A DNA stretch of 64,000 nucleotides. Origin: Roseateles hydrophilus (GTDB lineage Bacteria; Pseudomonadota; Gammaproteobacteria; Burkholderiales; Burkholderiaceae_C). The position numbers and the translations under genes were made by a program. Location of the stretch: NCBI RefSeq assembly GCF_026712245.1, contig NZ_JAPPUY010000004.1, positions 62,001 to 126,000 of the forward strand, read 5' to 3'. How positions within the stretch are numbered: position 1 is the stretch's first letter; the number at the start of each line of letters is the position of its first letter. The notes under the pieces were generated by a model. The model was not told where the DNA came from and searched no databases. It saw only the letters and a program-made list of their open reading frames with translations. Of this stretch, positions 63,273 to 63,710 are shown piece after piece.

Positions 63273-63279
63273 GTTAGGG
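63273..63279 (+). other. Left boundary core site of an integron-type cassette
   Basis: GTTAGGG resembles the integron core site GTTRRRY, with G instead of the final pyrimidine. The coding sequence starts on its last base, as in compact gene cassettes. Its complement CCCTAAC recurs at the other end of the gene (63615-63621). Confidence 0.6.
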
Positions 63280-63620
63280 TGCTTAGATTGCAGCCTCAAT
63301 CTCAATGGTGCTTAATTGGCAATGTACTCGCAGCCAATAAGCATTTTTCAGTTGGCACAAGGGTTTTCTGTCTCCCGGCCCAATGGGGTGATGGTTACAA
63401 GAAAGTCGTCGCCATTGGTGTGCGCCGCGGTTCAAGAAAACTAGCACGCGTCATTGTTCCAAGCTCAAGCATTTCAAATTGGCGGGCCAAGGTTGTGTAC
63501 TCACCGTCCATTCTTCAACTAATAAGCGAATGGTGTACTCAGCCAGGTCATTCAAACTGGAACAGCCAAGACCACGTTGTCGAATACTTAGAATCTTTAA
63601 ACAATGACGCCGCACCCTAA
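63279..63620 (+). CDS. Cassette-borne hypothetical protein
   Basis: 113 residues from a GTG inside the left core site; no in-frame ATG exists. Composition and codon use are strikingly unlike the neighbours (AAT, TCA, ATT, TTA and CAA are common). The protein is rich in Trp and aromatic residues: WCLIGNVLAANKHFSVGT, VFCLPAQWGDGYKKVVAIG, SNWRAKVVYSPSILQLI. From memory it resembles a family of uncharacterised cassette proteins with a CFPAQWGDGYE-like core; this is recollection, not a search. The stop codon TAA lies within the attC-like site. Function unknown. Confidence 0.7.
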   Translation: MLRLQPQSQWCLIGNVLAANKHFSVGTRVFCLPAQWGDGYKKVVAIGVRRGSRKLARVIVPSSSISNWRAKVVYSPSILQLISEWCTQPGHSNWNSQDHVVEYLESLNNDAAP

Positions 63621-63710
63621 CCTTTCGGTCAACGTTACGACCCAAAGCTGCGCTTTGGGTTCCCTTCATGCCTGCGGCATTCCGGCCGCACGTTACCTCC
63701 AACGTTAAAG
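63615..63710 (+). repeat. attC-like recombination site
   Basis: A 96-base imperfect inverted repeat. R'' CCCTAAC (63615-63621) faces R' GTTAAAG (63704-63710), five of seven paired with two G-T pairs on the bottom strand. After unpaired spacers of 5-6 bases, L'' GGTCAACGT (63627-63635) pairs with L' ACGTTACC (63690-63697), leaving one extrahelical C in L'', as in genuine attC sites. The interior has two hairpins, CCCAAAG/CTTTGGG and TGCGGC/GCCGCA. Confidence 0.72.

Follow-up and report, generated by a model that had tools for sequence, protein, structure and literature searches.

How does a single gene with the borders of an integron cassette come to lie in a chromosome with no integrase gene beside it? 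Integrons are natural gene-collecting devices, and cassettes without an integrase are common; without a recognisable attI, a cassette left by a decayed integron is not easily distinguished from one inserted at a random site. The question arises near the end of the window, by which we mean the whole stretch of 64,000 nucleotides that was analysed (bases 62001 to 126000 of contig C8, in a genome of 4.77 Mb and 13 contigs). An earlier note on this DNA had described a low-GC gene bracketed by cassette-type cores and followed by an inverted repeat. These observations hold, and the following features are found:

63274..63704, + strand, gene cassette, with crossovers at G63273^T63274 and G63704^T63705, attI on the left and attC on the right
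63279..63620, + strand, cassette gene with an open reading frame, 113 amino acids from GTG 63279 or 110 from TTG 63288
63615..63710, + strand, attC site, found by covariance model R1 with 40.1 bits and E 6.8e-7 over all 76 model positions
63615-63621 (R''), 63627-63635 (L''), 63690-63697 (L') and 63704-63710 (R'), boxes of the attC site, with 8 pairs in the L arms

The sequence GTTAGGG at 63273-63279, which reaches the GTG codon, is the reverse complement of the R'' box CCCTAAC, and the TAA stop (63618-63620) lies inside the latter. The GC content is 0.47-0.51 (200-base steps within 63200-63699), compared with 0.735-0.79 in the steps within 62000-62999. The cassette had been given as 63273..63710; because the left crossover falls at G63273^T63274, it runs instead from 63274 to 63704. 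One open reading frame fills it, and a simple consensus scan of 62860-63810 gave no sigma-70-like match. The segment 63274-63704 is an integron gene cassette.

R1 was built from 44 attC sites of related integrons, the focal site being excluded. These were chosen by hand and aligned from 107 heuristic candidates found at 58 integrase loci; a 45th site (L098) was too long and was left out, and two of the 44 come from the C7 array of the same genome. In this alignment the R and L arms have 89.3% paired cells (74.9% when shuffled) and a covariation score of 0.397 (0.129 when shuffled). All three attC sites in the C7 array are matched by R1 too, two of them being training sites. At the focal locus, the covariance-model check suggested by the earlier note gave a score well off background, this being the only match in the window up to E 5. 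The single extrahelical base that had been reported is C63630 (top strand), at a column that is unpaired in the model. Folding of the bottom strand, another check named there, agreed in part: folded without constraints, the DNA is stable (bottom strand z -2.65, top strand z -3.95), but the minimum-energy fold pairs AACGTT palindromes, not the canonical R and L arms. A strict rule-based attC scan was discarded, as it missed the focal site and the C7 array sites, and an Rfam search of the window gave no attC match.

Could the inverted repeat have arisen by chance beside an ordinary horizontally acquired gene? A relaxed rule-based scan, which is weak when taken alone, finds one match in the window; simulated sequences of 64 kb average 0.3 matches each, and 11 of 40 had at least one. 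However, the E value of the covariance model, the matching cassette start and the attI-like sequence alongside (see below) argue against coincidence, as does a near-identical attC (95.6% identity, 91 nt) that lies at C6 in the same genome behind an unrelated acetyltransferase gene. We give chance a negligible probability.

No integron integrase gene had been seen in the window, and this is confirmed: the best tblastn match, with the genome's own IntI as query, has E 0.098. A single gene of the genome exceeds the integron-integrase cut-off, an intact intI that lies on contig C7 and whose LexA box is intact; its closest named relatives are in Ideonella, Pelomonas/Roseateles and Paucibacter. Of the features of a complete integron, intI adjoining attI is absent from the focal locus and attI is present. 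The earlier note missed the latter, which lies directly upstream of the cassette:

63159..63174, decayed LexA-box-like sequence of a putative lost integrase promoter, CGGTATTCGCCAGCAG, with 7 of 9 fixed positions
63183..63275, + strand, relict attI site, matched by an attI profile with 15.8 bits, E 9.5e-4 over 167 kb
63200..63275, + strand, attI signature, CAAGCACTT, 59 bases, AACACGTT

The segment 63159-63275 is a decayed attI whose integrase promoter holds a LexA-box-like sequence, and it stops exactly at the cassette boundary. Compared by Blast with L016, the integrase locus of this genome, the upstream region has two short collinear matches, ATCAAGCACTTGC followed by AACACGTTA-GG-GCTTAGAT, the second spanning the junction. 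Several other integrases also have this motif and core next to them; as a rule the LexA box precedes the motif by 42-43 bases, and the motif-to-core spacing is 76-77. At the focal site, CGGTATTCGCCAGCAG stands 41 bases before the motif, where intact boxes stand at 42-43 in other loci, and it aligns onto the intact LexA box of L092, an attI beside a full intI. The pattern CAAGCACTT-N55..72-AACACGTT has a single match in the window and none in 100 shuffles; a search of 299 genomes finds it at 16 places, spread over 12 of them, and a reversed-pattern control at 2 places. The profile match ends exactly on the cassette core, and the next match away from an integrase has E 0.24.

The profile was built from 17 of 58 intI loci, among which at least one place occurs twice. 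Nineteen of them held the core AACA[CA]GTT, and two of these were dropped, namely L063 (a distant integrase, whose match was thought to be chance) and L086 (the same place as L067). Because the training loci were selected for this core, its part of the profile score is partly built in, and shuffle tests with the core held fixed correct for this. In such a test with the 8-base core fixed, the alignment of the focal attI to that of L092 scores 21, and none of 200 shuffles exceeds 9.5. Eighteen loci were compared in this way and L092 scored best; the focal site outscores every shuffle with 6 of them but not with the other 12. The motif-to-core spacing is 68 in both the focal site and L092 and is shared by no other locus examined. 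A DNA search with the attI region gave no copy at E <= 0.001 in 398 other genomes of the family.

These observations bear on a second scenario, in which the cassette was inserted by an integrase working in trans, at an ordinary GTT site of the chromosome that has no attI (attG, or secondary-site, insertion). The genome does possess an intact IntI, as well as two attC loci at which no attI was found (C10:140.6k and C1:1.09M), and insertions of this kind, lone cassettes in the chromosome like the present one, are reported (Loot et al. 2024, as summarised in passages of PMC12901181 and PMC12444791). In those passages the target is a non-attI site, whereas the left junction of the focal cassette is an attI: about 117 bases upstream are attI-like, with motif, spacing and decayed promoter box, and end at the crossover. 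We therefore consider attG insertion quite improbable.

By its sequence the locus shows an attC, an attI that abuts exactly on the cassette, and no detectable intI alongside. It is very probably a degraded integron, consisting of attI and one cassette, from which intI was lost. A chromosomal integron would once have stood here, with intI leftward on the minus strand; by recombining attC with attI at G63273^TT, the integrase would have taken in a circular cassette; intI would then have been lost and its LexA-controlled promoter would have decayed, so that what remains is attI plus a single cassette whose attC is well formed. Protein and DNA profile searches of 62600-63300, left of attI, gave no intI remnant (best E 0.22), so it is from the attI and the promoter that we infer the former intI. 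The earlier note had proposed either a single cassette caught away from any array or the margin of an array interrupted here. This is not the best reading, because a relict attI of its own holds the cassette, which would thus be the first cassette of an integron without intI, rather than one stranded at a random place.

A related scenario, compatible with a degraded integron, is that a longer array once stood here and lost its further cassettes by deletion, the present one being its left end. The right core, GTTAAAG, is also a cassette junction at L087 and L097, which would fit such a history, but R1 found no other attC elsewhere in the window or in L018 (16 kb). Deletion of further cassettes is a possibility to which we give less than an even chance.

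The locus is flanked by two genes of other kinds:

61473..62861, + strand, outer-membrane efflux protein gene, the end of an RND efflux operon (open reading frame; family named by eye)
63805..64000, - strand, NTF2/SnoaL-like gene, which continues past the window end (open reading frame 1806-2270 of L018; named by eye)

The efflux gene has an 84% identical copy in genome G008, where the flank diverges a few bases past the stop, and the NTF2/SnoaL-like gene has matches in 32 of 59 relatives. A comparison with sister strains, in search of an empty site, had also been suggested. The cassette gene proved absent from the 59 other relatives searched. Thirty relative loci were compared over at most about 1.5 kb of flank each (29 with the right-hand neighbour gene and one with the close left-hand gene): the two neighbours adjoin in none of them, and none has an empty site. 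One of these loci, L039, gave a single weak flank match of 61 bases (E 0.003).

The gene itself had been described as having 113 codons from GTG. The frame is indeed open from there, and TTG 63288 is the likelier start codon, because the resulting MQPQSQWC... resembles MQPQIQWC... of a Variovorax homologue (L113) and an AGGG ends 8 bases upstream. Forty homologues of the protein were found, most of them on short contigs, and in a 40-row alignment that includes the focal protein nine residues are invariant, among them C31, P33 and W36-Y40 (WGDGY). Searches of Pfam, NCBIfam, PADLOC, PHROGs and PDB gave weak matches only, none of them usable; there was no match among plasmid and phage records, and one to a viral contig (L228), where R1 finds no attC. 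Because the gene is open and the family-invariant residues are kept, we consider its product to be probably a functional, soluble accessory protein.

A class-wide search of 369 genomes yielded one other genome with a weak match (L112). R1 detects attC in 5 of 37 homologue loci (36 named genome loci and L112). In the other 32 it gives none at E <= 1, R1 being built from sites of the Burkholderiales; therefore either the family is not only cassette-borne or R1 misses distant attC types. The neighbouring open reading frames of 22 homologue loci, inspected by eye (three had none called), include no consistent partner. In Undibacterium (L115) the homologue lies in a true array with attC on both sides, also with GTTAGGG/CCCTAAC ends. 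The Variovorax locus is a parallel to the focal one:

L113:4777-5450, MAG contig SEGS01000008.1, single decayed cassette with a homologue of the focal gene, adjoining an attI-like region

No intI is present in the Variovorax stretch examined. Its attI-like region is of another type, that of L080, with which it scores 69 against a shuffle maximum of 43, the best of 58 loci compared.

Fourteen of the 16 pattern places score as attI; the other two, L183 and L194, do not, and no attC was found at either. Among the 14, the focal site is the weakest (15.8 bits against 44-124), and its spacing of 68 departs from the 76-77 of the other 13. Full intI is present at five of the 14 (L185, L191, L192, L195 and L197); at L193 it is split between two frames, at L190 and L196 there is an N-terminal stub only, and within the roughly 1.5 kb examined there is none at L184, L186, L187, L188 and L198, the last being the focal locus. 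The remaining one, L189, starts at a contig end, where the LexA value is meaningless and was not used. The LexA box is intact in the five loci with full intI and in L196, and altered or missing in the other seven assessable loci. An attC was found at 12 of the 14, the two exceptions (L185 and L191) both being cut short. Related genomes thus show, by this profile, intI at graded stages of decay.

Within the focal genome, R1 matches attC at 12 places with E values of 1 or less. The attI profile, applied to selected stretches, reveals at least three other attI sites without intI, at C6:384.5k (E 1.2e-15), C10:164k (1e-11) and C8:393k (5.6e-11). In five stretches searched for integrase, the only match up to E 1 has E 0.57 and lies at L179, which is not one of the attI-bearing C6, C10 and C8:393k stretches. 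The C6 locus (L181:5502-6252; C6:384.5-385.3k) is a second attI without intI, with a single GNAT acetyltransferase cassette whose gene is unrelated to the focal one. On contig C7, decayed recombinase C-terminal pieces occur at L017:10689-10856 and 11070-11195 (C7:50.7-51.2k), 82% and 40% identical to the C7 IntI, respectively. The first cassette of the C7 integron (L016:188-559, minus strand) encodes an Imm1-family immunity protein (PF14430, E 9.4e-10).

An attI block of about 300 bases, without intI and LexA box, recurs at three places in two species:

L178:5795-6380, attI block
L180:8758-8170, - strand, attI block
L186:1501-1800, - strand, attI block, in a sister species (G012)

C10 and C8:393k are 95.8% identical over 589 bases, comprising attI without LexA box and the first cassette; the identity ends exactly at the first attC crossover, and the later cassettes differ. 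The sister-species locus shares about 300 bases and the same altered LexA region, at another place and with a different first cassette. Among all loci compared, this altered region occurs only at these three places. The left edges of the block agree within about 30 bases at all three, and the left flanks differ. Differing first cassettes and divergence at the attC crossover are the pattern that cassette exchange after intI loss would leave. This suggests, short of proof, that such attI blocks may be copied and may receive cassettes although no intI adjoins them. Near-identical transposase copies of the IS110 family are present among the integrase-less cassette arrays (L178:7397-10475 and L180:6284-7345); the name rests on one copy scanned against Pfam, the others being alike by DNA.

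The C7 IntI could still excise or replace the focal cassette in trans. One may go further and imagine a distributed integron, in which the C7 integrase serves in trans at least four further attI sites without intI, some of them spreading as short blocks, the focal locus being one such site with one resident cassette; this is a speculation that we expect to fail rather than to hold. Should such sites still be in use in trans, an integron would not be a single locus but a system with several docking sites across the genome. We found no paper describing several attI sites without intI per genome at the level of titles and beginnings of abstracts, most subscription papers being out of reach. The dispersed blocks are a better lead than the focal locus.

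Degraded integrons are already known, and the focal locus is ordinary in kind, but it is well resolved and it points to a less ordinary pattern in the genus. CALINs have been proposed to be degraded integrons, of which those with a single attC can be true positives, the default of IntegronFinder 2 being at least two attC sites (sections of PMC9024848). The focal cassette resembles CALINs as described there, with an attC and no integrase nearby; unlike the default CALIN, the locus has one attC in the window and L018, and its attI is still recognisable. In Xanthomonas, parts of PMC12444791 describe integrons with lost or truncated intI at a locus beside ilvD, and CALINs at other loci. As there, attC outlives the integrase at the focal locus; in contrast to the one ilvD-linked integron locus of that account, several loci of the Roseateles genome are anchored by attI. 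An integron remnant of Treponema phagedenis kept attC sites after the loss of intI, and its authors worked with attC because attI sites are less conserved (excerpts of PMC3607928). Unlike that remnant as there presented, the focal locus shows an attI, and it is the attI profile that makes the case for a degraded integron here.

Elsewhere in the window, a 5 kb search gave an element resembling group II intron domains V/VI (RF00029; 52.3 bits, E 1.7e-8) at 35593-35669 on the minus strand, immediately upstream of a gene identified by eye as one for IMP dehydrogenase.
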